Shown in pieces: positions 1,407 through 11,887 of a DNA stretch of 34,454 bases. The notes under the pieces are model-generated. The model searched no databases and was not told the origin of the DNA. It saw nothing but the letters and a program-made list of their open reading frames with translations. A program made the position numbers and the translations under genes. The DNA is from a virus. Positions within the stretch are counted from its first letter, which is position 1; each line of letters opens with the position of its first letter. The stretch covers positions 1 through 34,454 of the IMG/VR virus record IMGVR_UViG_3300048055_000061. The stretch is one strand, 5' to 3'.

Positions 1407-1700
1407 TTGGGTGACCTGACCGGCAAGATGGACCAGTTCGTGCAGGACTGGTCCCCGCAGCAAGGGCCGACTTGTTCGGTCGGAATGCTGATGGCCGCGC
1501 TCCCGAAGGAGGAGGCTGACGCACTGCGTCGCCTGTTCGCTTCGAGGGTCTACGCCACCGACATCTCCAAGTTCATCCAGAGCGAGGTCCCTGGCGAGCA
1601 TCCAGAGAAGCCCGCGATCGGCGCGCTCGCTCGCGCCGTCAAGCCTGACGCCACCCAGCGTCATCGGCGAGGAGCGTGCGGCTGCGAGGACAAGGGCTGA
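1407..1700 (+). CDS. Small HTH-like protein with C-terminal HRRGxCxC motif
   Basis: A 97-residue protein starting at TTG 1407, preceded by GGAGG at 1395-1399. It has a conserved-looking WSPQQGPTCSVG start, a helical centre (ALPKEEADALRRLF, then a second helix pair ending IGALARAVKPD) and a terminal RHRRGACGCEDKG. This layout matches a small protein common in actinobacteriophages and usually annotated as helix-turn-helix or hypothetical; that match is from memory. The Cys and basic residues at the end suggest nucleic-acid or metal binding. Its stop overlaps the next start (TGATG), so the two are translationally coupled. The palindrome over its RBS may mean autoregulation, which is inference. 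Confidence 0.6.
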   Translation: MGDLTGKMDQFVQDWSPQQGPTCSVGMLMAALPKEEADALRRLFASRVYATDISKFIQSEVPGEHPEKPAIGALARAVKPDATQRHRRGACGCEDKG

Positions 1701-4590: not shown

Positions 4591-4612
4591 TGTCCCGTGG
4601 TGCTGCTACGTT
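4591..4612 (+). promoter_or_regulatory. TGTCCC-N10-TACGTT promoter of the tmRNA
   Basis: TGTCCC (4591-4596), ten bases, then TACGTT with an upstream TGC (extended -10). The mature tmRNA 5' end is 11 nt downstream, a good distance for a short 5' leader. One of seven copies of this element in the window. Confidence 0.65.
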
Positions 4613-4623
4613 GGTGGTTGCAA

Positions 4624-5006
4624 GGGCCTGACAGGTTTCGACGGTGAGATCTGGAAGCGCCGACTGCGACCCGAGTGATCGTTGGCAGACTCGTAAAACG
4701 GCTGACACCACATACATGCCGAGGACAACACCGCGGCTCCTGAGAGCAACGCCCTGTGGGCGGAGTTCGATGCGCTGGAAGGCGCTCTCGTCTGAACGAC
4801 GAGCAGGACGGGGCTGACTGAGCCTTGCTACCCAATCAGTCGGACGGCTCGGATAGACGAGCGGACGGTCGGAGAGACGACGGACATGGCCGGAGAGACG
4901 GCCAACTGACCCGCAAGGGTGACGCCTCGGAGAGACGAGGAATGGTCGTACATCAGTCGTCGTAACCACTCATCGGACGGGGGTTCGATACCCCCCAGGT
5001 CCACCA
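4624..5006 (+). ncRNA. ssrA: tmRNA (ssrA)
   Basis: Transfer-messenger RNA for rescue of stalled ribosomes. The 5' end GGGCCTG is followed by ACAGGTTTCGACGG, the conserved tmRNA start. The 3' end has a GGGGG-TTCGATA-CCCCC T-arm, CAGGTCC, A73 and an encoded CCA (5004-5006). The acceptor stem pairs completely and has G3-U70, the alanine identity pair. A tag ORF at 4718-4795 starts with resume codon GCC and encodes AEDNTAAPESNALWAEF followed by DALEGALV, then TGA. The 25-residue length and ALV ending match the published mycobacteriophage Bxz1 tag as I recall it. Pseudoknots between 4796 and 4970 are likely but were not folded. The final A is also the first base of the next start codon. Confidence 0.92.
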
Positions 5007-5437
5007 TGAAGTCGGTGATCGAGCACGGGCCGGTCCCGGCCGAGCGATGCGACGAAGTGCTCGCCGAAGCGGCGCTGCACGTGAAGGCCGTCGGCATGAA
5101 GGTCATCTCGTGCGAGGGCTGGCGCGTGAAGCCCGGCAGCGTGGCCGACGCCTTGCTCAACGACATCGGCTTGGCCGTGAGCGAGGCTCAGGTCGTTCGC
5201 TACGGTCCCGGCGGCGAGTACGCCTGGCATACCGATGGACCCAACCGGCGCATCACGATGATCGTGCAACTCTCGGACCCGTCGTGGTACGAGGGCGGCG
5301 ATGTCGAGATCGAGGAGTTCGAGGCTCTCCTCCCGCGCGGTCGCGGCGGCGTCATCACGTTCCCCGCGCAGGTTCGTCATCGCACGCAGCCGATCACCAA
5401 GGGCGAGCGGTACGTGCTCGTCGGGTGGGTCCGCTGA
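5006..5437 (+). CDS. 2OG-Fe(II) oxygenase (prolyl 4-hydroxylase-like)
   Basis: A 143-residue protein with a compact double-stranded beta-helix dioxygenase core: RYGPGGEYAWHTDG supplies H75 and D77, RHRTQPITKGERYVLVGW supplies H125 and the 2-oxoglutarate-binding R135. The full HxD...H...R set is present, so it should be an active hydroxylase. The substrate is unknown; it could be a protein (including a ribosomal or release factor), nucleic acid or small molecule. The ATG starts on the last base of the tmRNA CCA, leaving no room for an RBS downstream of the tmRNA, so 3' processing of the tmRNA would leave a leaderless message. An in-frame upstream GTG/ATG region lies entirely inside the tmRNA and was not used. 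Confidence 0.85.
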   Translation: MKSVIEHGPVPAERCDEVLAEAALHVKAVGMKVISCEGWRVKPGSVADALLNDIGLAVSEAQVVRYGPGGEYAWHTDGPNRRITMIVQLSDPSWYEGGDVEIEEFEALLPRGRGGVITFPAQVRHRTQPITKGERYVLVGWVR

Positions 5438-5471
5438 GCGTCTCATGCGCCGACGCGTAATCCACTGGCGT

Positions 5472-5493
5472 TGTCCCGTGCTAGTGGTACGGT
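5472..5493 (+). promoter_or_regulatory. TGTCCC-N10-TACGGT promoter
   Basis: TGTCCC at 5472-5477, ten bases, TACGGT at 5488-5493 preceded by TGG. It lies upstream of the small ORF at 5538 and the first tRNA block, for which it is the likely promoter. Confidence 0.6.
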
Positions 5494-5537
5494 GGGATCT
5501 CACGACCCGATGAAGCAACCGCGAAGGAGGCACCGCC

Positions 5538-5624
5538 ATGATGCGAGCGACGAGGATCTTTACCGTCGCCACCGCCAGGCGCGGTGGTATCGCGGGGACC
5601 GTCGGGACGATCAGCACACGCTGA
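5538..5624 (+). CDS. Small basic peptide (28 aa)
   Basis: ATG 5538 follows a strong Shine-Dalgarno AAGGAGG with a 7-nt spacer, and the TACGGT promoter is 44 nt upstream. The product starts MMRATRIFTVATARRGG and ends IAGTVGTISTR: basic and mildly hydrophobic, without a clear domain. It ends 15 nt before the first tRNA-like gene, so it may be a leader peptide for the tRNA transcript. It is the best supported of the small ORFs in the island because of its RBS. No function is proposed. Confidence 0.45.
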   Translation: MMRATRIFTVATARRGGIAGTVGTISTR

Positions 5625-5639
5625 CCCCCCACAGTTCGT

Positions 5640-5711
5640 TGCGGGAGAGCCGGTGCTCGGGAGTGGCTCATAACCACACCTTGCTGGGACCAACACCCAG
5701 TCCCGCCACCA
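5640..5711 (+). tRNA. tRNA-Met(CAT), atypical
   Basis: Acceptor TGCGGGA/TCCCGCC with A73 and encoded CCA. Anticodon loop CTCATAA on stem AGTGG/CCACA; T-arm CTGGG/CCCAG with the unusual loop ACCAACA. The D-arm GAGC-CGGT-GCTC directly abuts the acceptor stem. Position 1-72 is a U-C mismatch, as might suit an initiator, but the three G-C pairs of initiators are incomplete. Reading as an Ile tRNA after lysidine modification is also possible. Confidence 0.6.
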
Positions 5712-5716
5712 CCTGC

Positions 5717-5795
5717 CGGAACCGCTAGAAGCCAATCGCCCTAGCGGGCTTGGCTGAGGTTCCGTTCCGGGTCGGGAGTGCAGGCTCCCGGCCCG
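5717..5795 (+). other. Structured stretch, possible tRNA remnant
   Basis: Overlapping inverted repeats: CGGAACC/GGTTCCG, CCGCTAG/CTAGCGG, GCCAA-GCCC/GGGC-TTGGC, and a 10-bp stem GGGTCGGGAG/CTCCCGGCCC. The first three are mutually exclusive. CGCTAGAAGC is identical to the 5' region of tRNA-Gly at 5904, suggesting a decayed tRNA or a folding switch. No plausible anticodon arm was found. Confidence 0.4.
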
Positions 5796-5799
5796 TCAC

Positions 5800-5870
5800 G
5801 GGGTACGCGCGTTGGGTCGCAGCCATCCCTTGCAAGGAAGGTCTGCTCGGATCGTCACCGAGGTACTCCA
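5800..5870 (+). tRNA. tRNA-Ala(TGC), atypical
   Basis: Acceptor GGGGTAC/GTACTCC includes the G3-U70 pair expected for alanine; A73, no encoded CCA. Anticodon loop CTTGCAA on stem CATCC/GGAAG (one mismatch). The T-loop ATCGTCA lacks the usual TTC, and the D-stem is only GCG/CGC next to the acceptor. Confidence 0.7.
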
Positions 5871-5902
5871 CTGCAAAGCAACCTGCTCTTTGACAAGTCC
5901 AC

Positions 5903-5977
5903 GCGCTAGAAGCATTGGTGGTGATGTGCCGTCCTTCCAAGTCGGGGAACCGAGTTCGACTCTCGGCTGGCGCTCCA
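5903..5977 (+). tRNA. tRNA-Gly(TCC)
   Basis: Acceptor GCGCTAG/CTGGCGC, T73 and encoded CCA. D-arm GCAT/ATGT, anticodon loop CTTCCAA on CCGTC/GTCGG (one T-T mismatch), T-loop TTCGACT. Confidence 0.88.
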
Positions 5978-5978
5978 T

Positions 5979-6053
5979 GCGATCGAGGTCTACTTGGCGA
6001 GACGCCACGGTGCCATCGTGGAGAACCGGGTTCGACTCCCGGCGATCGCTCCA
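5979..6053 (+). tRNA. tRNA-Gly(GCC)
   Basis: Acceptor GCGATCG/CGATCGC with T73 and CCA; D-arm GTCT/AGAC; anticodon loop GTGCCAT on CCACG/CGTGG; T-loop TTCGACT. One base after the preceding tRNA. Confidence 0.93.
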
Positions 6054-6054
6054 A

Positions 6055-6129
6055 GGGTCATTGGTGAAACTGGAATCACATGAGCGTGAAGCACTCAGGT
6101 TCTCGGTTCGAGTCCGGGGTGGCCCACCA
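6055..6129 (+). tRNA. tRNA-Phe(GAA)
   Basis: Acceptor GGGTCAT/GTGGCCC, A73 and CCA. D-arm GTGA/TCAC; anticodon loop GTGAAGC on TGAGC/ACTCA (C-A closing mismatch); T-arm CTCGG/CCGGG. Confidence 0.88.
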
Positions 6130-6136
6130 CAAACGC

Positions 6137-6211
6137 AGACCTGTAACTCAGCGGCAGAGTGCCTCCGTCACATGGAGGTGGCCGAGGGTTCGAGTCCCTC
6201 CGGGTCTACCA
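6137..6211 (+). tRNA. tRNA-Val(CAC)
   Basis: Acceptor AGACCTG/CGGGTCT, A73 and CCA. D-arm ACTC/GAGT; anticodon loop GTCACAT on CCTCC/GGAGG; T-arm GAGGG/CCCTC. Confidence 0.93.
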
Positions 6212-6212
6212 G

Positions 6213-6288
6213 TGCCAGCGGACCATCGGGTGATGGTGTCGTTCTGATAAGGCGACCGTGCAGAGTTCGAGTCTCTGGCTGGCAACCA
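6213..6288 (+). tRNA. tRNA-Ile(GAT)
   Basis: Acceptor TGCCAGC/GCTGGCA fully paired, A73 and CCA. D-arm ACCA/TGGT; anticodon loop CTGATAA on TCGTT/GGCGA; T-arm CAGAG/CTCTG. Confidence 0.93.
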
Positions 6289-6300
6289 CAAGAAACGCAA

Positions 6301-6372
6301 CGACCTGTGGCTCAGAGGCAGAGCAGCACCTCGACACGGTGAAGGTCGCAGGTTCGATTCCTGCCAGGTCGA
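6301..6372 (+). tRNA. tRNA-Val(GAC), C33 variant
   Basis: Acceptor CGACCTG/CAGGTCG, A73, no CCA. D-arm GCTC/GAGC; anticodon stem GCACC/GGTGA with loop TCGACAC, so position 33 is C rather than the near-universal U. T-arm GCAGG/CCTGC. Isotype taken from GAC; the shifted loop makes this less certain. Confidence 0.7.
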
Positions 6373-6383
6373 CAACAAGACGA

Positions 6384-6460
6384 AGGCACGAGGTCCGATC
6401 GGAACGGACGCCGGTTTCCTAAACCGGAGAGTGCGGGTTCGAGTCCCGCCGTGCCTGCCA
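6384..6460 (+). tRNA. tRNA-Arg(CCT)
   Basis: Acceptor AGGCACG/CGTGCCT, G73 and CCA. D-arm GTCC/GGAC; anticodon loop TTCCTAA on CCGGT/ACCGG; T-arm GCGGG/CCCGC. Reads AGG, a rare codon in a GC-rich genome. Confidence 0.93.
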
Positions 6461-6461
6461 C

Positions 6462-6533
6462 GCACCCGTGGTTCATCAGGTAGAACACCGCTCTCGTAAA
6501 GCGGAGGGGCCGGTTCGAGTCCGGCCGGGTGCT
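6462..6533 (+). tRNA. tRNA-Thr(CGT)
   Basis: Acceptor GCACCCG/CGGGTGC, T73, no CCA. D-arm GTTC/GAAC; anticodon loop CTCGTAA on CCGCT/AGCGG; T-arm GCCGG/CCGGC. Confidence 0.93.
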
Positions 6534-6544
6534 CGCAACAACAT

Positions 6545-6619
6545 GCCTCTGTGGTCCCAATGGTAGGACGTGTCCGTGGTAAGGACGAGGTTCGGGTTCG
6601 ATTCCCGGCGGAGGCTCCA
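6545..6619 (+). tRNA. tRNA-Thr(GGT)
   Basis: Acceptor GCCTCTG/CGGAGGC, T73 and CCA. D-arm GTCC/GGAC; anticodon loop GTGGTAA on TGTCC/GGACG; T-loop TTCGATT. Confidence 0.93.
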
Positions 6620-6620
6620 T

Positions 6621-6692
6621 GCCGTTGCTCACGGCTGAGGCCCCCTGCCTTGTAAGCGGGAGGCTCGGGGTCGGCACCCGGCAGCGGCTCCA
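6621..6692 (+). tRNA. tRNA-Thr(TGT), atypical
   Basis: Acceptor GCCGTTG/CAGCGGC, T73 and CCA. Anticodon loop CTTGTAA on CCTGC/GCGGG. The D-arm CTCA-CGGC-TGAG joins the acceptor directly, and the T-loop GTCGGCA lacks TTC. Completes a set of three Thr isoacceptors. Confidence 0.78.
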
Positions 6693-6709
6693 ACGAGAGA
6701 GGGAACATC

Positions 6710-7349
6710 ATGCGAGTAGAGATCAGGCCCGGTGAAGGTGGTGACGACGCTCAACGCTTCGCTCAGGAGTGTCTTTGACGCGCTCCTTCGAGCGGCTCGG
6801 CGGCGTGGTGATGAGGTCCGCTCGCGATCGTCCGGGCGCACCCTCTCGTTCGAGATCGGCGACGGTGAGTGGCTGAGGCCCTTCGTCGGCACCCACCGCG
6901 TCCAGCGCATCCCCAAGGGCGCATCAGCGCGCCACACCTCCACCGCGACGATCGCTCTCGTGGACGGTGATAGCCGAGGGGCTATCACGTTGGCAGAGGA
7001 CGACATCGAGGAGCGGTTCGACCGAGGCTCGGGTCCGGGCGGTCAGCATCAGAACACGACGGACTCGGCGGTCACCGTGATCCATCGCCCGACGGGGACC
7101 AGCGTCCACATCGAGGGGCGATCGCAGACCGAGAACCGGCGCAAGGCGCGCTCCGAGTTGGCTCGACGGCTGGATCGCCGGGCCGAGGCCGACACGTTGC
7201 GTATCCGCAACGCCCAGCGCCGCGAGCAGATCACCTCGGGCGAGCGGCCGGTCAAGCAGTTCACCCACAACACCCAGCGCAACGAGGTCGTCGACCACGA
7301 GACGGGCAGGAAGTGGACGCTCGATCGTTGGATGAAGGGCCGGTGGTAA
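6710..7349 (+). CDS. GGQ release factor-like protein with programmed +1 frameshift (joined product)
   Basis: The ATG at 6710 (RBS AGAGAGGG) reads 22 codons, starting MRVEIRPGEGGDDAQRFA, up to CTT TGA at 6773-6778. Skipping one base to read GAC at 6777 continues to TAA 7349 for a 212-residue product. Both halves match class-I release factors: EIRPGEGGDDA and THRVQRIPKGASARHTST are domain-2 motifs, and GSGPGGQHQNTTDSAV carries the peptidyl-tRNA hydrolysis motif GGQ (110-112). The shift site CAGGAG-TGT-CTT-TGA-C reproduces the E. coli prfB frameshift signal, including the 3-nt spacing from the SD-like AGGAG. The N-terminal domain 1 is missing and no clear SPF or PxT codon-recognition motif is seen, so it may act in rescue or as an unusual RF. 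It begins 17 bases after a tRNA gene. Confidence 0.88.
6768..6779 (+). promoter_or_regulatory. RF2-type +1 recoding site
   Basis: SD-like AGGAG (in 6765-6769), one TGT codon, then CTT TGA C. Stalling at TGA when RF2 is limiting would favour slippage from CTT to TTT in the +1 frame and resumption at GAC. Confidence 0.85.
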
Positions 7350-7358
7350 GTTCACCGC

Positions 7359-7487
7359 ATGGCCGACCGTCAGCCGCGCTACTGCCAGATCTGCAAGACC
7401 TATCGCGTGTTCGAGGGGGACCGCGAGGTCGAACCGTGTGCCTGCGAGGAGTGCCCCGGCGAGTGCATCTTCCTCGAAGCGGACTAG
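7359..7487 (+). CDS. Small zinc-ribbon-like protein (42 aa)
   Basis: ATG 7359, 9 nt after the release-factor stop. The product contains YCQICKTYRVFEGD and then PCACEECPGECIF: seven cysteines in 42 residues, arranged as CxxC followed by CxCxxCxxxC, so one or two metal sites are likely. There is no strong RBS, so it may depend on translational coupling with the upstream gene. Its last codons overlap the end of the convergent gene at 7484. No function can be assigned. Confidence 0.55.
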   Translation: MADRQPRYCQICKTYRVFEGDREVEPCACEECPGECIFLEAD

Positions 7488-7870
7488 GCGGCGATGAGTC
7501 CCTCGAAGGTGTCGGGGATTCCAGCGGAACCGTCGAGCGCGGCGATGGCCTCGTCAACCTCGATGATGAGCGCATCCTTGATCCGCACAGCCCCGGAGCG
7601 CCAGAGCACCTCCTCGGGGAAGATGGCGTCGGGCATGTCGTCGGTGGCGAACAGCACCGCAGCCTTGCGGCCCTCGTCACCGATCACACCGCAACCGCCG
7701 CCGTACTGCACACCGGGAACAGAGGAGCCGCCAACCGCAACGGCGTAGGCGGACTCACGAGTACCGGCCCGAACCTCGCCGGTAGCGACGATGGCCTCGG
7801 CGTCCTCGGCGGTGGTGAAGTGCACGTAGAGGCCGGTGATGATCTTGGTGACCAGGGTGGTTGCGTCCAT
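7484..7870 (-). CDS. Hypothetical protein, possible ADP-ribosyltransferase-like fold
   Basis: A 128-residue protein, leftward from ATG 7870. It opens LVTKIITGLYVHFTTAEDAE and continues AIVATGEVRAGTRESAYAV, a pattern (short strand, HxT, helix, IxxxGxI) seen in ART/PARP-like and RNA 2'-phosphotransferase-like proteins. A later segment VLFATDDMPDAIFPEEVLW could hold a catalytic Glu, but no H-Y-E triad can be assigned confidently, so the fold is a tentative idea. A GTGCAC-N17-TACAGT promoter ends six bases before the ATG (leaderless). It is one of few leftward genes here and converges on the release factor operon. Confidence 0.65.
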   Translation of the reverse strand: MDATTLVTKIITGLYVHFTTAEDAEAIVATGEVRAGTRESAYAVAVGGSSVPGVQYGGGCGVIGDEGRKAAVLFATDDMPDAIFPEEVLWRSGAVRIKDALIIEVDEAIAALDGSAGIPDTFEGLIAA

Positions 7871-7876
7871 GCCCTT

Positions 7877-7905
7877 ACTGTAGCAGGCTCGACGACACCG
7901 TGCAC
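7877..7905 (-). promoter_or_regulatory. Promoter of the leftward gene, leaderless geometry
   Basis: Minus-strand GTGCAC, 17-nt spacer, TACAGT preceded by TGC, then AAGGGC and ATG 7870. Confidence 0.55.
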
Positions 7906-7920
7906 AAACCTCTCGATCGC

Positions 7921-7942
7921 TGTCCCGCGCTGGTGCTATCCT
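7921..7942 (+). promoter_or_regulatory. TGTCCC-N10-TATCCT promoter
   Basis: Seven bases separate TATCCT from an ATG at 7950. The sequence upstream (GATCGCTGTCCCG) is shared with the tmRNA promoter. Likely drives the tRNA block from 8074. Confidence 0.6.
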
Positions 7943-7949
7943 GACCCCC

Positions 7950-8036
7950 ATGACGTTGAACGTGCGAGATCGAGAGCGGGTGGAGCGATGGCTCCCCGTT
8001 GCGCGCGCTTCCGTCCCTGAACCCTCGGATCGGTAG
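7950..8036 (+). CDS. Small Arg-rich ORF (28 aa), leaderless
   Basis: ATG 7950 lies seven bases after the -10 box TATCCT, where +1 is expected. The product is MTLNVRDRERVERWLPVARA followed by SVPEPSDR, highly charged. The sequence alone cannot tell a real peptide from a chance ORF, but four other copies of this promoter are likewise followed by a start codon. It could be a leader peptide for the downstream tRNA transcript. Confidence 0.35.
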   Translation: MTLNVRDRERVERWLPVARASVPEPSDR

Positions 8037-8073
8037 CGGCGCTGGGGCATCAGCCCTCGCTCCGCCACATCAT

Positions 8074-8151
8074 GCCGCTGTAGGGGAAATGGTCAGACCC
8101 ACCTGCCTCTCACGCAGGGACTTGCCGGTTCGAGTCCGGTCAGCGGTACCA
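8074..8151 (+). tRNA. tRNA-Glu(CTC)
   Basis: Acceptor GCCGCTG/CAGCGGT, A73 and CCA; D-stem GGG/CCC with long loop; anticodon loop CTCTCAC on CCTGC/GCAGG; T-arm GCCGG/CCGGT. Confidence 0.92.
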
Positions 8152-8152
8152 A

Positions 8153-8228
8153 GGTCCATTGGAGGAGTCAGGCCGTCCTCGCCTCCCTGTCACGGAGGAA
8201 ACCACGGGTTCAAATCCCGTATGGACCG
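8153..8228 (+). tRNA. tRNA-Asp(GTC)
   Basis: Acceptor GGTCCAT/ATGGACC, G73, no CCA; D-arm GAGG/CCTC; anticodon loop CTGTCAC on CCTCC/GGAGG; T-arm ACGGG/CCCGT with TTCAAAT. Confidence 0.93.
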
Positions 8229-8242
8229 CGTAGCAACAACAA

Positions 8243-8318
8243 GCCCCGGTGGTGGAACGGTAGACACACCTGTCTTTCACACAGGCTCTTGCGGGTTCGA
8301 GTCCCGTCCGGGGTTCCA
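8243..8318 (+). tRNA. tRNA-Glu(TTC)
   Basis: Acceptor GCCCCGG/CCGGGGT, T73 and CCA; D-stem GTG/CAC; anticodon loop CTTTCAC on CCTGT/ACAGG; T-arm GCGGG/CCCGT. Confidence 0.92.
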
Positions 8319-8327
8319 GAAAATCAT

Positions 8328-8395
8328 GCGCCGGGTGCTGGGCACGGGTTGGCCTCCAAAACCGACCTTGCGGAGTTCGATCCTCTGACGGCGTG
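8328..8395 (+). tRNA. tRNA-Trp(CCA), compact
   Basis: Acceptor GCGCCGG/ACGGCGT (one mismatch), G73, no CCA. D-arm GTGC-TGG-GCAC directly abuts the acceptor. Anticodon loop CTCCAAA on TTGGC/ACCGA; T-arm CGGAG/CTCTG with TTCGATC. Only 68 nt. Confidence 0.78.
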
Positions 8396-8411
8396 CAACT
8401 CACGAGGTCGA

Positions 8412-8433
8412 TGTCCGATCCTCGTGCTACGGT
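8412..8433 (+). promoter_or_regulatory. TGTCCG-N10-TACGGT promoter
   Basis: TGC precedes the TACGGT -10. It lies between tRNA-Trp and the Leu tRNAs. An ATG follows after nine bases at 8443. Confidence 0.6.
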
Positions 8434-8442
8434 GAGGTCACC

Positions 8443-8508
8443 ATGAAGCAGCGACTACGACTTCGACGGCCCGGTGTGGCCGAGAGACTCCGACGATTGT
8501 CGGCGTAG
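8443..8508 (+). CDS. Very small Arg-rich ORF (21 aa)
   Basis: ATG 8443 follows the TACGGT box by nine bases, with GAGGTCACC between (a weak RBS). The product begins MKQRLRLRRPGVAERLRR: nine arginines in 21 residues. It overlaps the start of the tRNA-like hairpin at 8468, so translation would interfere with that structure. Possibly a regulatory or fortuitous ORF. Confidence 0.3.
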   Translation: MKQRLRLRRPGVAERLRRLSA

Positions 8509-8531
8509 TCACTCGCGCTCCTACCGGGCCA
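8468..8531 (+). other. tRNA-like hairpin element, possible tRNA remnant
   Basis: The ends GGCCCGGT and ACCGGGCC form an 8-bp acceptor-like stem. Inside is a second hairpin GACT-CCGAC-GATT-GTCGG-AGTC. There is no T-arm and no 7-base anticodon loop. It sits exactly where a tRNA would fit between Trp and Leu, so a degenerate tRNA is likely. Confidence 0.45.
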
Positions 8532-8543
8532 ACCCAACTCCTT

Positions 8544-8629
8544 GCGAGTGTGGCGGAACGGTAGACGCAGCAGTCTGAGAGGCTGCCGGGCTTCGGCCCA
8601 TGTGGGTTCGACTCCCTCCACTCGCACCA
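8544..8629 (+). tRNA. tRNA-Leu(GAG)
   Basis: Class II tRNA. Acceptor GCGAGTG/CACTCGC, A73 and CCA; anticodon loop CTGAGAG on GCAGT/GCTGC; variable arm GGGCTTCGGCCC; T-loop TTCGACT (one stem mismatch). Confidence 0.92.
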
Positions 8630-8630
8630 C

Positions 8631-8712
8631 GTGACCGTGGTGGAACTGGCAGACACGCTGTGCTCAGAACGCAGTGCCTTCGGGCGTGAGGGTTCAACTC
8701 CCTCCGGTCACA
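8631..8712 (+). tRNA. tRNA-Leu(CAG)
   Basis: Class II. Acceptor GTGACCG/CGGTCAC, A73, no CCA; anticodon loop CTCAGAA on CTGTG/CGCAG; variable arm GCCTTCGGGC; T-arm GAGGG/CCCTC. Confidence 0.93.
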
Positions 8713-8725
8713 CTCAACACAACTA

Positions 8726-8807
8726 GCCGATGTGGCGGAACTGGTAGACGCGCCGGATTCAAGTCCCGGTGTCCTCGGGCGTGTGGGTTCGACTCCCACC
8801 ATCGGCA
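8726..8807 (+). tRNA. tRNA-Leu(CAA)
   Basis: Class II. Acceptor GCCGATG/CATCGGC, A73, no CCA; anticodon loop TTCAAGT on CCGGA/CCCGG (A-C closing mismatch); variable arm GTCCTCGGGC; T-arm GTGGG/CCCAC. Confidence 0.92.
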
Positions 8808-8816
8808 CGCATACAT

Positions 8817-8891
8817 GCCCCGTTAGTTCAGTTGGATCAGAACGCGCGACTACGAATCGCGAGGCCGCAGGTTCGAGTCCTGCACGGGGCA
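8817..8891 (+). tRNA. tRNA-Arg(ACG)
   Basis: Acceptor GCCCCGT/ACGGGGC, A73, no CCA; D-arm GTTC/GAAC; anticodon loop CTACGAA on CGCGA/TCGCG; T-arm GCAGG/CCTGC. A34 would need deamination to inosine by host TadA. Confidence 0.94.
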
Positions 8892-8893
8892 CT

Positions 8894-8925
8894 GCGCCGG
8901 TTGGGTTCGACTCCCGACCGGGGCG
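8894..8925 (+). pseudogene. tRNA minihelix (acceptor plus T-arm only)
   Basis: GCGCC-GGTTGGG-TTCGACT-CCCGACC-GG-GGCGC folds as a 12-bp helix with a two-base bulge and a perfect T-loop. The D and anticodon arms are absent. It looks like a deletion product of a tRNA, located between two Arg tRNAs. Confidence 0.5.
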
Positions 8926-8971
8926 CTCAATACCTCACTCGATCGGGATACCTCACCGTGACAGTGAACAT

Positions 8972-9040
8972 GCCTCCATCAGCGGATCTGACGCTGGGCT
9001 TCCGAAGCCTGGTTGGTGAGTTCGACTCTCGCTGGGGGCG
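8972..9040 (+). tRNA. tRNA-Arg(CCG)
   Basis: Acceptor GCCTCCA/TGGGGGC, G73, no CCA; D-arm GCG/CGC; anticodon loop TTCCGAA on TGGGC/GCCTG; T-arm GTGAG/CTCGC. Slightly short between D and anticodon stems. Confidence 0.85.
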
Positions 9041-9044
9041 CTCT

Positions 9045-9114
9045 GCCCTCGCCTGTGGATCAGGTCCAGCGGCTTCTATCTGCATGGTGGCGGGTTCGAG
9101 TCCTGCCGAGGGCG
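9045..9114 (+). tRNA. tRNA-Arg(TCT), compact D-arm
   Basis: Acceptor GCCCTCG/CGAGGGC, G73, no CCA. D-arm CCTG-TGGAT-CAGG abuts the acceptor; anticodon loop CTTCTAT on AGCGG/CTGCA (A-A mismatch); T-arm GCGGG/CCTGC. Reads AGA. Confidence 0.82.
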
Positions 9115-9151
9115 CTCGATCGAGGGTGGCGCGCACGTCTCGGTGGTGTGG

Positions 9152-9157
9152 TACACT
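9152..9157 (+). promoter_or_regulatory. Extended -10 (TGG-TACACT)
   Basis: Seven bases before the ATG at 9165; no good -35. Consistent with a leaderless transcript. Confidence 0.4.
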
Positions 9158-9164
9158 TGTAGAC

Positions 9165-9548
9165 ATGAGGAACCACACCTACCGATGCGGGATCTGCGGC
9201 CAGACGAGCCAGCATCCTGCCGACGACGACACCCCGGTCTGCAACAACTCGGCCCACTGTGGCCTGCTGTTCGAGGACGAGATCGTCAAGCCCGAGGTCC
9301 CGACGAAGCGCAGCATCAAGTTCTCGCTCATCGGCGAGGGTCACGTCCAGGGCGACGACCGCGAGTACGAGGTCATCGTGCGAGGCCGGTACATCGGCAT
9401 CGTCTCCGCCGAGCAGCGTCCGGCTGTCCACAAGACCAACGAGGATCACTTCATCGACGGCTTCGCCTTCGGTGGCGAGGTCGACGGAGCCAACCGCTAC
9501 GGCTGGGGACGCACTCGGGCCGAGGCCGTGCTCGACGCCTTCTCCTGA
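9165..9548 (+). CDS. Hypothetical protein with N-terminal zinc knuckle (127 aa)
   Basis: Begins MRNHTYRCGICGQTSQ, with further Cys at VCNNSAHCG, a probable CxxC...C...C zinc site in the first 35 residues. The remainder looks beta-rich (SIKFSLIGEGH, YEVIVRGRYIGIVS) and ends GWGRTRAEAVLDAFS. No membrane segment. ATG 9165 was chosen because the TACACT box is seven bases upstream, and the long upstream extension of the frame passes through tRNA genes. It separates the Arg tRNAs from the Tyr/Ser block. Not recognised; possibly a small regulatory or RNA-binding protein. Confidence 0.7.
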   Translation: MRNHTYRCGICGQTSQHPADDDTPVCNNSAHCGLLFEDEIVKPEVPTKRSIKFSLIGEGHVQGDDREYEVIVRGRYIGIVSAEQRPAVHKTNEDHFIDGFAFGGEVDGANRYGWGRTRAEAVLDAFS

Positions 9549-9562
9549 ATCCACCACGGCGA

Positions 9563-9584
9563 TGTCCGGCACTGGTGCTACGAT
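9563..9584 (+). promoter_or_regulatory. TGTCCG-N10-TACGAT promoter
   Basis: Upstream of the tRNA-Tyr/Ser block. TGC precedes TACGAT, and a GTG codon follows seven bases later at 9592. Confidence 0.6.
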
Positions 9585-9591
9585 CGCTCTC

Positions 9592-9648
9592 GTGCGTACC
9601 ACCTATTCGTCCTCCGAGATCTGTCACGACTCCTCATCGAGTCGCTGA
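9592..9648 (+). CDS. Possible leaderless mini-ORF (18 aa, GTG start)
   Basis: GTG 9592 lies at the predicted transcription start. The product, MRTTYSSSEICHDSSSSR, is Ser-rich, unlike the Arg-rich siblings. Only the promoter geometry supports it. Confidence 0.2.
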   Translation: MRTTYSSSEICHDSSSSR

Positions 9649-9682
9649 CCGGGGCGCGCTCACATATCGGTGCGTCCCCCAC

Positions 9683-9761
9683 GAGAGGGACGCTCCAAGG
9701 TGGACAACCTGGCTGTAAACCGGGTGCTTCGGCGTGGTGGGTTCGATTCCCACGCCTCTCA
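9683..9761 (+). tRNA. tRNA-Tyr(GTA)
   Basis: Class II. Acceptor GAGAGGG/GCCTCTC (G-G at 7-66), A73, no CCA; anticodon loop CTGTAAA on CCTGG/CCGGG; variable arm with CTTCGG; T-arm GTGGG/CCCAC. Confidence 0.88.
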
Positions 9762-9767
9762 CTTCAA

Positions 9768-9850
9768 GGAAGGTGTGCGAGGCGTGGGCCTCGGTCCGGT
9801 TGCTACCCGGTGCGCTCCCTGTGGGTGAGGTTCGACTCCTCCGCCTTCCG
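9768..9850 (+). tRNA. tRNA-Ser(GCT)
   Basis: Class II. Acceptor GGAAGGT/GCCTTCC, G73; anticodon loop TTGCTAC on TCCGG/CCGGT; variable arm CCCTGTGGG; T-loop TTCGACT. Confidence 0.88.
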
Positions 9851-9902
9851 CTTGTCGCCGAGCGACGACATCGCGTAGATGTTGCCGATCGACGACAGAC
9901 AT

Positions 9903-9989
9903 GGAAGGTGCCGCTGGGTTGGCTGGCAACTGGTGTCGAAAGCCAGGGCGTTCTAACGGGCGGGGGTTCGACTCCTCCACCTTCCGCCA
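9903..9989 (+). tRNA. tRNA-Ser(CGA)
   Basis: Class II. Acceptor GGAAGGT/ACCTTCC, G73 and CCA; anticodon loop GTCGAAA on CTGGT/GCCAG; T-arm GGGGG/CCTCC. Confidence 0.9.
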
Positions 9990-10009
9990 ATGTGACCGAT
10001 CAGTCACAA

Positions 10010-10096
10010 GGAGAGTGGACCGGGCAGGCGTACCGGCACCCGTTGGAAGCGGGTTGGGTCCCGAAAGGGGGTGGGGTTCGAGTCCTCGTCTCTCCG
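10010..10096 (+). tRNA. tRNA-Ser(GGA)
   Basis: Class II. Acceptor GGAGAGT/TCTCTCC (T-T at 7-66), G73; anticodon loop TTGGAAG on ACCCG/CGGGT; variable arm GTCCCGAAAGGGG; T-arm TGGGG/CCTCG. Confidence 0.9.
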
Positions 10097-10126
10097 CTGA
10101 GAGGTTCTCGTCACGAGATCCTGTCT

Positions 10127-10172
10127 TGTCGTCGAACGGCGACATCGACATAGTGTCGTCGAACAGCGACAT
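10127..10172 (+). repeat. Two direct copies of a TGTCG...CGACA hairpin
   Basis: TGTCGTCGAACGGCGACAT (10127-10145) and TGTCGTCGAACAGCGACAT (10154-10172) differ by one base and repeat every 27 nt. Each can form a 5-bp stem. A related hairpin occurs at 9853-9870. They fill spacers between Ser and Cys tRNAs and could be processing signals. Confidence 0.6.
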
Positions 10173-10177
10173 GCCAC

Positions 10178-10254
10178 GCATCGGTGCCCGAGCGGCCAAG
10201 GGAACGGTCTGCAAAGCCGTACAACCGTGGGTTCGAGTCCCACCCGGTGCTCCA
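10178..10254 (+). tRNA. tRNA-Cys(GCA)
   Basis: Acceptor GCATCGG/CCGGTGC, T73 and CCA; D-stem CCC/GGG; anticodon loop CTGCAAA on ACGGT/GCCGT; T-arm GTGGG/CCCAC. U73 is the Cys identity base. Confidence 0.92.
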
Positions 10255-10277
10255 CGATCAGAAACCTCCACGGGCAA

Positions 10278-10299
10278 TGTCCCGTGCGCGTGGTACCTT
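10278..10299 (+). promoter_or_regulatory. TGTCCC-N10-TACCTT promoter with palindrome
   Basis: TGG precedes TACCTT; ATG 10307 follows seven bases later. The upstream element is the right half of CACGGG-CAAT-GT-CCCGTG, a palindrome that could also bind a regulator. Confidence 0.6.
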
Positions 10300-10306
10300 G
10301 GTTCCC

Positions 10307-10381
10307 ATGAGGATCCAACGACCTACCCCAGCGAATCGGCAGCGGCGCAAGCCGCATCAGCCGACGCGCGCTCGGGCGTAG
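10307..10381 (+). CDS. Small Arg-rich ORF (24 aa), leaderless
   Basis: ATG 10307 lies seven bases after TACCTT. The product begins MRIQRPTPANRQRRKPHQP and ends TRARA: about one third Arg/Lys, no hydrophobic core. With the ORFs at 7950 and 8443 it forms a set of basic mini-ORFs at the same place relative to the same promoter, just ahead of tRNA blocks. Translation is not proven. Confidence 0.35.
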   Translation: MRIQRPTPANRQRRKPHQPTRARA

Positions 10382-10433
10382 GCGGGTTCCTCCCTAGAAC
10401 CTCCTCACACCTCGTCCGAGCGACTCAACGCTC

Positions 10434-10505
10434 CGGGGTGTGGCTCAGTGGTAGAGCACTCGGTTTGGGACCGAGGGACCGTAGGTTCGATTCCTGCCAC
10501 CCCGA
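10434..10505 (+). tRNA. tRNA-Pro(TGG)
   Basis: Acceptor CGGGGTG/CACCCCG, A73, no CCA; D-arm GCTC/GAGC; anticodon loop TTTGGGA on CTCGG/CCGAG; T-arm GTAGG/CCTGC. Confidence 0.94.
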
Positions 10506-10510
10506 CTGAC

Positions 10511-10546
10511 ATAAGCGTTGTGCTCATCGCGCAACGCTGGCTTATG
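10511..10546 (+). other. Inverted repeat between Pro tRNAs
   Basis: AGCGTTG (10514-10520) pairs with CAACGCT, flanked by ATAAGC and GCTTAT. A strong stem-loop in the spacer, possibly a processing site. Confidence 0.5.
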
Positions 10547-10552
10547 AGTCAA

Positions 10553-10627
10553 CGGGTGGTAGCGCAGTCTGGTCAGCGTACTCGCTTCGGAAGCGAGTGG
10601 TCGCAGGTTCAAATCCTGCCCACCCGA
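10553..10627 (+). tRNA. tRNA-Pro(CGG)
   Basis: Acceptor CGGGTGG/CCACCCG, A73; D-arm GCGC/GCGT; anticodon loop TTCGGAA on CTCGC/GCGAG; T-arm GCAGG/CCTGC. Confidence 0.94.
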
Positions 10628-10639
10628 CGGAAACAACAA

Positions 10640-10713
10640 CGGACTGTGGCGCAGTTTGGTAGCGCACTCGCCTGGGGGGCGAGGGGTCGGGAGTTCGAGT
10701 CTCCCCAGTCCGA
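10640..10713 (+). tRNA. tRNA-Pro(GGG)
   Basis: Acceptor CGGACTG/CAGTCCG, A73; D-arm GCGC/GCGC; anticodon loop CTGGGGG on CTCGC/GCGAG; T-arm GGGAG/CTCCC. The anticodon stem is identical to the CGG isoacceptor, suggesting duplication. Confidence 0.94.
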
Positions 10714-10726
10714 CGCAAGACAACCT

Positions 10727-10797
10727 TCCCGGTTGGTGTAATGGCAACACGCGTGACTCTGAATCACGAGTTGGGAGTTCGAGCCTCTCGCTGGGAG
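10727..10797 (+). tRNA. tRNA-Gln(CTG)
   Basis: Acceptor TCCCGGT/GCTGGGA, G73; D-stem GTG/CAC; anticodon loop CTCTGAA on CGTGA/TCACG; T-arm GGGAG/CTCTC. Confidence 0.92.
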
Positions 10798-10862
10798 CGC
10801 AAGGAAAGCCACACGATCGAGAGCCGATCGGTGGGACAAGATGTGGGAGGAGGTGCTTCCCG

Positions 10863-11378
10863 ATGAACAAGGACGTGCTGGTGCTCGACGCGGCGTACAT
10901 GCCCCTCGGCGTCATCTCCCCGCGCAGGGCGGTGGTGTTGGCGTTGATGGACCTGGCTGAGATCGTGGCTGAGGGAGAAGGGGAGTGCCGCTCCCCGTCG
11001 ATCTCCGTCCCGTGGCCCGAGGTCGTCCGGCTCAACTGGATGGTCAAGGTGCCGGATCGTGCTCGCATCCCGGTCAACAAGAGGAACGTGCTCGCTCGCG
11101 ACAACGGGCGGTGCGCCTACCGGCGCTCCAACCCCGACGAGTGCGAGGGCAAGGCATCGTCCGTCGACCACGTGCGGCCTCGGTCGCGCGGTGGTCGTCA
11201 CCGTTGGGACAACGTGGTGGCCTCGTGCTCGCCATGCAACTCCCGCAAGGACAACGCTCTCCTCACCGAGATCGGCTGGGAGTCAGCCAACGATCCCTAC
11301 GTGCCGCGAGGCGCGCTGTGGTTCGCTCTGGCTCACACCCCGCTGCCGTCGTGGGAGCCGTACTTGGCGGCGGCATAG
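10863..11378 (+). CDS. HNH endonuclease
   Basis: A 171-residue protein; ATG 10863 follows GGAGGAGG. The C-terminal half is an HNH nuclease: RDNGRCAYRRSNPDEC, then SSVDHVRPRSRGG (catalytic DH), WDNVVASCSPCNSRKDN (the N and CxxCN parts). The first zinc knuckle, normally CxxC, reads CAYR, so one metal ligand may be lost or supplied by the nearby Cys of DECEG. The N-terminal half (VLVLDAAYMPLGVISPRRAV) is the usual partner domain of this actinophage HNH family. It lies inside the tRNA array, where free-standing homing-type nucleases are common and may help gene conversion. The stop is 5 nt before tRNA-Gln. Confidence 0.88.
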   Translation: MNKDVLVLDAAYMPLGVISPRRAVVLALMDLAEIVAEGEGECRSPSISVPWPEVVRLNWMVKVPDRARIPVNKRNVLARDNGRCAYRRSNPDECEGKASSVDHVRPRSRGGRHRWDNVVASCSPCNSRKDNALLTEIGWESANDPYVPRGALWFALAHTPLPSWEPYLAAA

Positions 11379-11383
11379 GGCCT

Positions 11384-11454
11384 TCGGGGATCGTTCAACG
11401 GCAGGACGCGACTCTTTGGAAGTCGTCATGGAGGTTCGAGTCCTCCTCCCCGAG
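11384..11454 (+). tRNA. tRNA-Gln(TTG)
   Basis: Acceptor TCGGGGA/TCCCCGA, G73; D-arm GTTC/GGAC; anticodon loop CTTTGGA on CGACT/AGTCG; T-arm GGAGG/CCTCC. Confidence 0.94.
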
Positions 11455-11494
11455 CGCAAGACAAGCACCTGATCGAGAGGTCGGGGATCATCAT

Positions 11495-11569
11495 GGTGAT
11501 CGTGGTCCAACGGCATGACGCCGGGTTGTGTCCCCGGAGATGGCGGTTCGATTCCGCTCGGTCACCCCA
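11495..11569 (+). tRNA. tRNA-His(GTG)
   Basis: Encodes the extra G-1 opposite C73, the histidine identity pair, and CCA. Acceptor GTGATCG/CGGTCAC; anticodon loop TTGTGTC on CCGGG/CCCGG; T-arm GGCGG/CCGCT. Confidence 0.93.
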
Positions 11570-11570
11570 T

Positions 11571-11641
11571 TGCAGAGTGGTGAAATGGCATCACGCGCGG
11601 TTGTTACCCGCGAGTTCGGGGTTCGAGTCCCTGCTTTGCAG
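11571..11641 (+). tRNA. tRNA-Asn(GTT)
   Basis: Acceptor TGCAGAG/CTTTGCA, G73; D-arm GTGA/TCAC; anticodon loop TTGTTAC on CGCGG/CCGCG; T-arm CGGGG/CCCTG. Confidence 0.93.
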
Positions 11642-11670
11642 CCATGTTCAGTCTGATCTTCTTCCGTGAT

Positions 11671-11699
11671 GCGAGCGGCCGAGCACACCTCGGCCTCGC
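11671..11699 (+). other. Strong stem-loop between Asn and Lys tRNAs
   Basis: GCGA-GC-GGCCGAG-CACAC-CTCGGCC-TCGC: an 11-bp stem with a 2-nt bulge, no T-tract. It lies in a 93-nt spacer that otherwise shows no gene. Confidence 0.45.
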
Positions 11700-11734
11700 G
11701 AAACGCGCCCGGCGAAAGCCCAAGCGCGCACCGC

Positions 11735-11808
11735 GGAGGTAGCACCCGACAGGACTGGGTACCGGGCTTTTACCCCGGATTGAGTGGGTTCGAGTCCCAC
11801 TGCCTCTA
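11735..11808 (+). tRNA. tRNA-Lys(TTT)
   Basis: Acceptor GGAGGTA/TGCCTCT, A73; D-arm ACCC/GGGT; anticodon loop CTTTTAC on CCGGG/CCCGG; T-arm GTGGG/CCCAC. Confidence 0.93.
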
Positions 11809-11812
11809 CCGC

Positions 11813-11887
11813 GGGGGTGAAGCATTGACGGCGATGCACCCGGCTCTTACCCGGAAGAACAGGGTTCGACTCCCTGTACCCCTACCA
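11813..11887 (+). tRNA. tRNA-Lys(CTT)
   Basis: Acceptor GGGGGTG/TACCCCT, A73 and CCA; D-arm GCAT/ATGC; anticodon loop CTCTTAC on CCCGG/CCGGA; T-arm CAGGG/CCCTG. Last tRNA of the array. Confidence 0.93.

Follow-up and report, generated by a model that had tools for sequence, protein, structure and literature searches.

Composition of the island

The stretch analysed here, called the window, is the whole of IMG/VR record IMGVR_UViG_3300048055_000061, a viral genome fragment of 34,454 bases. It carries an island of transfer RNA (tRNA) genes inside its head/structural module, between the genes for the head protease and the capsid. The island begins at 4591 with the first of six promoter-like motifs, continues with a transfer-messenger RNA (tmRNA; 4624-5006) and ends with the last tRNA at 11887. 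In total, 36 tRNA genes with 36 distinct anticodons lie at 5640-11887 (5.8 per kb), and a gene for a protein resembling release factor 1 (RF1) and an HNH endonuclease gene are embedded among them. The features are listed below with strand and evidence; R1 is a covariance model described in the next section, G015 and G017 are related virus genomes, and ORF stands for open reading frame.

4591-4612 (+), promoter-like motif 1, TGTCCC-N9-TGCTACGTT, upstream of tmRNA; motif scan
4624-5006 (+), tmRNA, tag AEDNTAAPESNALWAEFDALEGALV, coding part 4718-4795, G3:U70, encoded CCA; ARAGORN, RF00023 79.3 bits
5006-5437 (+), 2OG-Fe(II) oxygenase-like ORF, ATG overlapping the tmRNA CCA (CCATG); Pfam PF13640 1.8e-13
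5472-5493 (+), promoter-like motif 2; motif scan
5640-5711 (+), tRNA-Met(CAT), compact D-arm, non-canonical T-loop ACCAACA, 1-72 mismatch; R1 29.6 bits
5800-5871 (+), tRNA-Ala(TGC), borderline, 3-bp D-stem, T-loop ATCGTCA, G3:U70, A73; R1 13.9 bits, G015 orthologue
5903-5977 (+), tRNA-Gly(TCC); ARAGORN, Rfam
5979-6053 (+), tRNA-Gly(GCC); ARAGORN, Rfam
6055-6129 (+), tRNA-Phe(GAA); ARAGORN, Rfam, G015 orthologue 92% identical
6137-6211 (+), tRNA-Val(CAC); ARAGORN, Rfam
6213-6288 (+), tRNA-Ile(GAT), two G-U pairs in anticodon stem; R1 54.7 bits
6301-6373 (+), tRNA-Val(GAC), unusual C33; ARAGORN, Rfam
6384-6460 (+), tRNA-Arg(CCT); ARAGORN, Rfam
6462-6534 (+), tRNA-Thr(CGT); ARAGORN, Rfam
6545-6619 (+), tRNA-Thr(GGT); ARAGORN, Rfam
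6621-6692 (+), tRNA-Thr(TGT), compact D-arm, non-canonical T-loop GTCGGCA; R1 30.4 bits
6732-7349 (+), RF1-like GGQ protein, 205 amino acids; Pfam RF-1 1.6e-19
7484-7873 (-), ORF of no known family, 129 amino acids; no Pfam, NCBIfam or PHROG match
7921-7942 (+), promoter-like motif 3, then ATG in leaderless layout; motif scan
8074-8151 (+), tRNA-Glu(CTC); ARAGORN, Rfam
8153-8229 (+), tRNA-Asp(GTC); ARAGORN, Rfam
8243-8318 (+), tRNA-Glu(TTC), unusual U73; ARAGORN, Rfam
8328-8396 (+), tRNA-Trp(CCA), compact D-arm, 3-nucleotide loop TGG, G73; R1 29.7 bits
8412-8433 (+), promoter-like motif 4; motif scan
8544-8629 (+), tRNA-Leu(GAG); ARAGORN, Rfam
8631-8713 (+), tRNA-Leu(CAG); ARAGORN, Rfam
8726-8808 (+), tRNA-Leu(CAA); ARAGORN, Rfam
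8817-8892 (+), tRNA-Arg(ACG); ARAGORN, Rfam
8972-9043 (+), tRNA-Arg(CCG), compact D-arm (TCAG CGGAT CTGA); R1 28.3 bits
9045-9117 (+), tRNA-Arg(TCT), compact D-arm (CCTG TGGAT CAGG); R1 32.3 bits
9167-9550 (+), ORF of no known family, 127 amino acids; no Pfam, NCBIfam or PHROG match
9563-9584 (+), promoter-like motif 5; motif scan
9683-9762 (+), tRNA-Tyr(GTA); ARAGORN, R1 21.7 bits
9768-9851 (+), tRNA-Ser(GCT); ARAGORN
9903-9989 (+), tRNA-Ser(CGA); ARAGORN, G015 orthologue 92% identical
10010-10097 (+), tRNA-Ser(GGA); ARAGORN, G017 orthologue 83% identical
10178-10254 (+), tRNA-Cys(GCA); ARAGORN, Rfam
10278-10299 (+), promoter-like motif 6; motif scan
10434-10506 (+), tRNA-Pro(TGG); ARAGORN, Rfam
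10553-10628 (+), tRNA-Pro(CGG); ARAGORN, Rfam
10640-10714 (+), tRNA-Pro(GGG); ARAGORN, Rfam
10727-10798 (+), tRNA-Gln(CTG); ARAGORN, Rfam
10863-11378 (+), HNH endonuclease, 171 amino acids, G015 homologue 56%; Pfam HNH 3.5e-10
11384-11455 (+), tRNA-Gln(TTG); ARAGORN, Rfam
11496-11569 (+), tRNA-His(GTG), unusual T37, C73; ARAGORN, Rfam
11571-11644 (+), tRNA-Asn(GTT); ARAGORN, Rfam
11735-11810 (+), tRNA-Lys(TTT); ARAGORN, Rfam
11813-11887 (+), tRNA-Lys(CTT); ARAGORN, Rfam

Identification of the tRNA genes

An earlier note, made from the sequence alone, had listed about 36 tRNA genes and their isotypes by hand, and the list was reproduced exactly by ARAGORN together with the R1 model. At default settings ARAGORN called 29 tRNAs (5903-11887) and the tmRNA, and Rfam at its gathering thresholds called 25 tRNAs and the tmRNA. 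Seven genes, those for Met, Ala, Ile, Thr-TGT, Trp, Arg-CCG and Arg-TCT, were missed by both and were pointed to by low-threshold ARAGORN and by reading of the gaps. These were scored with R1, which was built from 58 tRNAs of relatives and no window sequence, with the cloverleaf structure given, and was scanned with filters off. In the alignment of the relatives' tRNAs 95.5% of cells are paired, 21 of 21 pairs change on both sides, and covariation is 0.95 as compared to 0.21 when shuffled. Scores for the seven were 54.7 bits (Ile), 32.3 (Arg-TCT), 30.4 (Thr-TGT), 29.7 (Trp), 29.6 (Met), 28.3 (Arg-CCG) and 13.9 (Ala). The best background match in the remaining 22 kb of the window reached 12.5 bits, and 200 kb of island-free relatives gave no matches at E values up to 1.

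By these measures 35 of the tRNAs are firmly tRNA-like, and tRNA-Ala is borderline (13.9 bits against the 12.5-bit background). The claim of tRNAs for all 20 amino acids holds firmly for 19 isotypes, including Met with its non-canonical T-loop; all 20 are covered only if both Ala and Met work. The island has the size and density of a phage tRNA gene cluster (at least 15 tRNA genes, at least 2 per kb; PMC6409571). Two additional weak tRNA-like folds, at 7982-8067 (13.5 bits) and 8464-8531 (5.2-8.9 bits), were left uncounted; the second overlaps a 21-codon ORF, and its stretch is conserved in G015.

Isoacceptors are clustered, as the note had seen, with 13 adjacent pairs for the same amino acid as compared to a mean of 1.3 and a maximum of 7 after shuffling. 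The proposed origin of this order, local duplication followed by anticodon change, is unsupported for most of the genes: 19 of 25 testable genes are nearer to a relative's gene with the same anticodon than to the adjacent isoacceptors. Recent local duplication is mostly ruled out by this comparison, the Glu pair excepted.

Several features suggest that the tRNAs function. The discriminator base suits the amino-acid class in 35 of 36 (31 were parsed by script; the other four, in Ala, Met, Thr-TGT and Tyr, were judged by eye from the sequence), the exception being Glu-TTC with U73. Identity elements include G3:U70 in both tRNA-Ala and the tmRNA, C73 in tRNA-His and G73 in tRNA-Trp. In the case of tRNA-Ala, a 7-bp acceptor stem is combined with G3:U70 and A73, and a syntenic G015 orthologue has an identical acceptor stem.

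It could be argued that the low-scoring genes are pseudogenes and that the real set numbers about 29-30, without Met, Ala, Trp and perhaps Ile. This would account for the failure of ARAGORN and Rfam to call them by default, for the lack of a TTCRA T-loop in Met, Ala and Thr-TGT and for the 13.9 bits of Ala. However, the score of Ile is 54.7 bits, in Trp, Arg-CCG and Arg-TCT a canonical T-loop is combined with a compact D-arm that other phages share, and the stems of all seven are nearly fully paired with identity elements kept. Pseudogene status is ruled out for Ile, Trp, Arg-CCG and Arg-TCT, and as an account of the whole group it is rather unlikely. Met, Ala and Thr-TGT may be decaying or unusual. 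Their T-stems are fully paired, the orthologues of Ala in G015 and of Thr in G017 do have the TTCRA T-loop, and the window Thr-TGT shares its acceptor 5' strand with a compact Thr-TGT of G017.

tRNAs with a compact D-arm

A canonical bacterial tRNA has a two-nucleotide linker at positions 8-9, a D-loop of 7-11 nucleotides and 18-22 nucleotides between the acceptor and anticodon stems. Five window tRNAs (Trp, Arg-CCG, Arg-TCT, Met and Thr-TGT) depart from this layout, with no linker and only 14-16 nucleotides; the other 30, besides Ala, look canonical. In these five, a 4-bp D-stem directly follows the acceptor stem, the D-loop has 3-5 nucleotides with GG, and 3-4 nucleotides separate the D-stem from the anticodon stem. 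Most of the tRNAs missed by the default programs were missed because of this compact D-arm.

A structural scan that required a canonical T-loop found the compact form in several arrays: Trp, Arg-CCG and Arg-TCT in the window, Trp, Arg-ACG and Arg-CCG in G015, Trp, Ala-GGC and Thr-TGT in G017, Thr-TGT, Arg-ACG and Arg-CCG in another array (L184), and one Arg-CCG in each of three Bixzunavirus genomes. Matches with a 4-nucleotide linker were canonical tRNAs aligned in a shifted register. The scan gave zero matches in 2.7 Mb of sequence shuffled three times with its composition preserved. When the D-stem was not required, a distance of 14-17 nucleotides between acceptor and anticodon stems occurred in 21 viral cases, of which 13 have a fully paired 4-bp D-stem, as compared to 0 of 86 bacterial matches. 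The D-stems of tRNA-Trp differ among phages (GTGC/GCAC, GCGC/GCGC, CCAC/GTGG) yet stay paired, which argues for selection over decay.

The Bixzunavirus compact Arg-CCG is present in 182 mycobacteriophage records, 177 of them at 99% identity or more. Among the 40 of these 182 that were listed, 38 have no annotation at this place, one has tRNA-Gly and one (Phabba) has tRNA-Arg. The divergent Phabba copy retains the layout. Positions in Bixzunavirus/Myrnavirus isolates are as follows.

Compact tRNA-Arg(CCG): L231 15353-15422; L232 9580-9649; L233 10263-10332; L234 8001-8070

No description of truncated D-arms in phage tRNAs was found in a limited literature search. We consider the chances about even that these tRNAs form a distinct class of functional tRNAs in actinophage-type arrays, found in at least five lineages and recurring in Trp, Arg, Thr, Ala and Met. 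The class would be marked by loss of the 8-9 linker, a 4-bp D-stem and a D-loop of 3-6 nucleotides usually with GG, and would be missed or mislabelled in annotation. The compact form may hide the tRNAs from host enzymes, whether nucleases or modification enzymes, that recognise a normal elbow.

The release factor-like protein

The gene that the earlier note had called release-factor-like is real (6732-7349; Pfam RF-1, 1.6e-19), and the termination function ascribed to it is probably wrong, as stop-reading parts are missing. Aligned with Thermus thermophilus RF1, the match begins at about residue 108, so that domain 1 is missing. The GGQ catalytic motif is present (GSGPGGQHQNTTDSAV). RF1 segment 115-123, which holds the GxxE motif (residues 116-119), is deleted, and the PVT motif (184-186) is PKG with the next two residues missing; the equivalents of Q181, P184, H193 and T194 are kept. 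In RF1 structures, G116 and E119 read the first base of the stop codon and T186 the second. Both losses are common to the closest relatives, in G015 and G017, and one or both motifs survive in array-linked proteins that are more distantly related.

The AlphaFold2 model (pLDDT 84.7) has a TM-score of 0.82-0.84 to ribosome-bound RF1. Scores against NCBIfam families are far below the cut-offs (RF1 112 against 400; PrfH, TIGR03072, 61.4 against 166.65; ArfB 30 against 100), and these together with the missing motifs rule out membership of canonical RF1, PrfH or ArfB. The protein shares its GGQ hydrolase domain with the RF1/PrfH/ArfB/C12orf65 superfamily and is closest to RF1 in sequence; the absence of domain 1 and a retained version of domain 2 are features that it has in common with PrfH. 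No RtcB was among the family matches in the window, where not every ORF was scanned.

Association with tRNA arrays is not limited to this locus. At least 9 tRNAs lie within about 16 kb of 21 of 79 IMG/VR RF-like loci, as compared to 0 of 80 RF loci in bacteria. Of the array-linked proteins, about half have only 116-160 amino acids, the size of a GGQ domain. Such GGQ-domain-only proteins occur in arrays of 9-34 tRNAs (L142-L145, L147, L150, L165, L167, L173, L176, L184 and L185), which come from several other phage lineages.

The loss of domain 1 and of the residues that read the first and second stop-codon bases makes a rescue hydrolase likelier than a terminator, and the protein is likelier to act independently of stop codons. 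Mitochondrial mtRF1, whose altered recognition loops can read other codons, is a precedent for a true termination factor, perhaps of altered specificity. The RF1-like fold of domains 2-4 (TM-score 0.83 to T. thermophilus RF1) and the four kept residues agree with that possibility. We nevertheless regard it as unlikely: domain 1 and the segment reading U1 are gone, all three close members have PKG in place of PxT and are short of two residues there, and several array-linked relatives are GGQ-domain only. RF relatives have been proposed as rescue factors in conflicts (PMC6514570).

tmRNA and promoter-like motifs

The tmRNA in the island was confirmed by ARAGORN and Rfam (79.3 bits). It has a tRNA-like domain with G3:U70 and CCA, and a tag reading frame whose C-terminal half is kept between the window (ESNALWAEFDALEGALV) and G015 (ESDALWAEFDAREGVLV). 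With its encoded CCA and a tag conserved in a relative, the tmRNA looks functional. Cellular tmRNA tags generally end in -AA, as do two other viral tags (L150 and L178). Tags of four phage tmRNAs (window, G015, Bixzunavirus and Phabba) end in -LV, an ending that may change proteolysis of tagged products. The -LV ends are found at window 4718-4795 and in the tmRNAs of L027, L231, L232, L233 and L234.

The motif TGTCC[CG]-N-TG[CG]TA[CT] has six copies, all on the plus strand and in island gaps (starts 4591-10278). It occurs nowhere else in the window, and about 0.2 copies are expected per strand. Downstream of four copies, at 7-9 nucleotides, lies the ATG or GTG of an 18-28-codon ORF in a leaderless layout. 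From this placement we infer that the six copies act as internal promoters.

Genomic setting and history

The GC content of the window is mostly 0.63-0.67. The product of 3-1355 is kin to head maturation proteases (PHROG), and an exonuclease-like protein is encoded at 1676-3007. On the other side of the island the major capsid protein is encoded (13212-15152; PHROG major head protein, 2e-75), and tail-type genes lie beyond it. The isolate closest in capsid is the freshwater Actinomycetia phage DSL-LC01 (39%), and Arthrobacter, Microbacterium and Gordonia phages come next. The virus is likely a phage of Actinobacteria, judged from capsid kinship alone. No near DNA match to the window was found in the phage records searched. 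At 18291-20681 a 796-amino-acid protein with many repeats of IVGG/FIGGG-type motifs is encoded, probably a repetitive fibre-like structural protein.

The protease and exonuclease-like genes flank one side of the island in G015, G016 and G017 (44-71% identity), and in G015 the other flank holds a homologue of g12252 and the start of the capsid gene. Since these three relatives carry the island at the same genomic place, a recent insertion in the window phage is ruled out. The 2OG-Fe(II) oxygenase-like ORF had no tblastn match in the relatives' islands. In a sister group (L003-L017; capsids 55-67% identical), the protease, sometimes the exonuclease-like gene, and the capsid gene are present with about 3 kb between, and tRNAs are absent from the protease-capsid interval. 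The island is thus an old resident of one clade, missing from the sister group; the difference between the two may reflect either acquisition or loss.

Comparison with known arrays

Phage tRNA gene clusters have 15-37 genes at 2-10 per kb, and eight with all 20 isotypes were known by 2019 (PMC6409571). The window resembles the latter, if Ala and Met count, and differs from them in having no duplicated anticodon and an embedded RF-like gene. Cluster C mycobacteriophages have up to 36 tRNAs (PMC10264068). Among isolates, the closest example of this kind of island is Bixzunavirus. Like the window, Bixzunavirus and Myrnavirus (cluster C) have about 25-36 tRNAs with a tmRNA and HNH on one strand, tmRNA tags ending in -LV (ATDTDATVTDAEIEAFFAEEAAALV; Phabba ...SVLV) and the same compact Arg-CCG. 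In contrast, they have no significant DNA match to the window outside tRNA-like stretches, their islands adjoin tail genes and a helicase instead of protease and capsid, several also hold a tRNA with a CTA anticodon, and Bixzunavirus has a peptidyl-tRNA hydrolase in place of the RF-like gene. The CTA-anticodon tRNAs, called tRNA-Pyl, lie at L231 10936-11008, L232 5315-5386 and L233 6097-6169 in Bixzunavirus; another amber-reading one with the same label is at L030 16818-16894, in a 182-kb phage (G018).

Arrays with a tmRNA, an RF-1-domain gene and HNH are known in Mycobacterium abscessus and cluster M phages (PMC5966550). All four parts of these G1-type arrays are present in the window, the RF genes being matched by domain label only. 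G1-type arrays differ in often holding a structured RNA of about 430 nucleotides (none was found in the window by Rfam) and in their location on prophages, chromosomes or plasmids. DSL-LC01 has a related head module but only 3 tRNAs and no tmRNA. The kind of island is therefore already known; the RF relative's lost stop-codon reading and the compact-D-arm tRNAs go beyond precedent. A bacterial array of 18 tRNAs, with one for most amino acids, was also seen in Virgisporangium ochraceum (L227, contig C143, 74000-91500), perhaps on an integrated element.

Code coverage and interpretation

Codons were counted in 22 window genes (6082 codons) and read by strict wobble rules. With all 36 anticodons, 54 of the 61 sense codons can be read, and these make up 92.8% of codon occurrences, which is near-complete coverage; with the 29 default-called genes alone the figures are 45 codons and 77.9%. 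Among the unread codons, GCC and GCT account for 404 uses; reading them would require tRNA-Ala(UGC) to decode the whole GCN box. The others (TCA 19, GTA 11, CTA 6, TTA 0, ATA 0) add up to 36 uses of 6082.

The anticodon set was compared to that of an actinobacterium, Virgisporangium (genome G021, 44 sense anticodons), which is not the phage's host. All 36 island anticodons fall within these 44, each once; the probability that 36 random draws from 44 are all different is about 5e-10. The eight without an island counterpart are CCC, CGC, GGC, TAA, TAC, TAG, TAT and TGA. The retention of tRNAs for codons nearly unused in the fragment (AAA and AGA, one use each) is easier to reconcile with a whole pool than with codon tuning.

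The island is best explained, with somewhat better than even confidence, as a phage translation kit that takes the place of host tRNAs when their pool is attacked. The genes, almost all of them on the same strand, would be read from several of the island-specific promoter-like motif copies. The trigger would be cleavage, decay or shortage of host tRNAs during infection; phage protein synthesis could then go on with the island's set, which has a single tRNA for each anticodon and covers nearly all of the code. Stalled ribosomes would probably be cleared by the tmRNA, through trans-translation with SmpB and AlaRS of the host, and by the RF1-like GGQ protein, which would probably hydrolyse peptidyl-tRNA with no need for a stop codon. 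The kit would rely on host synthetases, tRNA maturation and ribosomes. No SmpB was recognised in the 34-kb fragment, where no search was aimed at it, and it may come from the host or be encoded in the part of the genome outside the fragment. That phages bring tRNAs to withstand attacks by the host on translation is already an established proposal (PMC7824862, PMC10264068, PMC11555353), and phage tRNAs counter tRNA-targeting defences (PMC10264068, PMC11555353).

Phage tRNAs are also reported to bear loop changes at anticodon-nuclease sites (PMC10264068). C38 replaces the reference A38 in 7 of 22 window tRNAs (Glu x2, Asp, Asn, Lys x2 and Ser-GCT) as compared to 3 of 42 in relatives (Fisher p = 0.025, uncorrected, with several positions inspected and a non-host reference). 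This excess is consistent with protection from anticodon nucleases and lends weak support to it.

Other observations weigh against the kit. The A38-to-C signal is weak and its reference is not the host. Alanine, the commonest amino acid (686 of 6082 codons), is served by a single weak tRNA with an abnormal T-loop, and GCY decoding would require four-way reading by UGC. With only one CAT tRNA, initiator and elongator Met cannot both be supplied, and no aminoacyl-tRNA synthetase was recognised in the 34-kb fragment. Given these last points and the odd Ala and Met structures, the earlier description of the island as near self-sufficient was overstated.

A virulent phage that degrades host DNA and RNA might run out of host tRNAs late in infection, without new transcription and with no defence involved. 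The near-complete set, the position of the island inside the structural gene region and the prediction that most phages with tRNA clusters are virulent (PMC6409571) all agree with this. It leaves the pairing with rescue factors and the anticodon-loop changes unexplained, and no host-degrading genes were recognised in the fragment, so that we hold it to be improbable as a separate account; it overlaps the favoured reading, and sequence cannot separate the two. Codon compensation, the classic hypothesis in which phage tRNAs boost codons used more by phage than by host, fits the rarity in phage genes of the tRNA-less codons TTA, ATA, CTA, GTA and TCA, but it too is improbable, as there is one gene per anticodon with no dosage for the commonest codons, tRNAs for AAA and AGA are retained, the commonest amino acid depends on the weakest tRNA (Ala), and the anticodon set mirrors the general actinobacterial set.

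As the compact-D-arm tRNAs demonstrate, phage tRNA counts are underestimated by standard tools. Mycobacteriophages that are easy to grow carry the same compact Arg tRNA, and its charging, decoding and resistance to nucleases are open to direct measurement there. One conserved locus here joins a near-complete, non-redundant tRNA set, a tmRNA and an RF relative without stop-codon reading, which makes it a testable case that phages carry their own translation-maintenance kit and not a few codon boosters.

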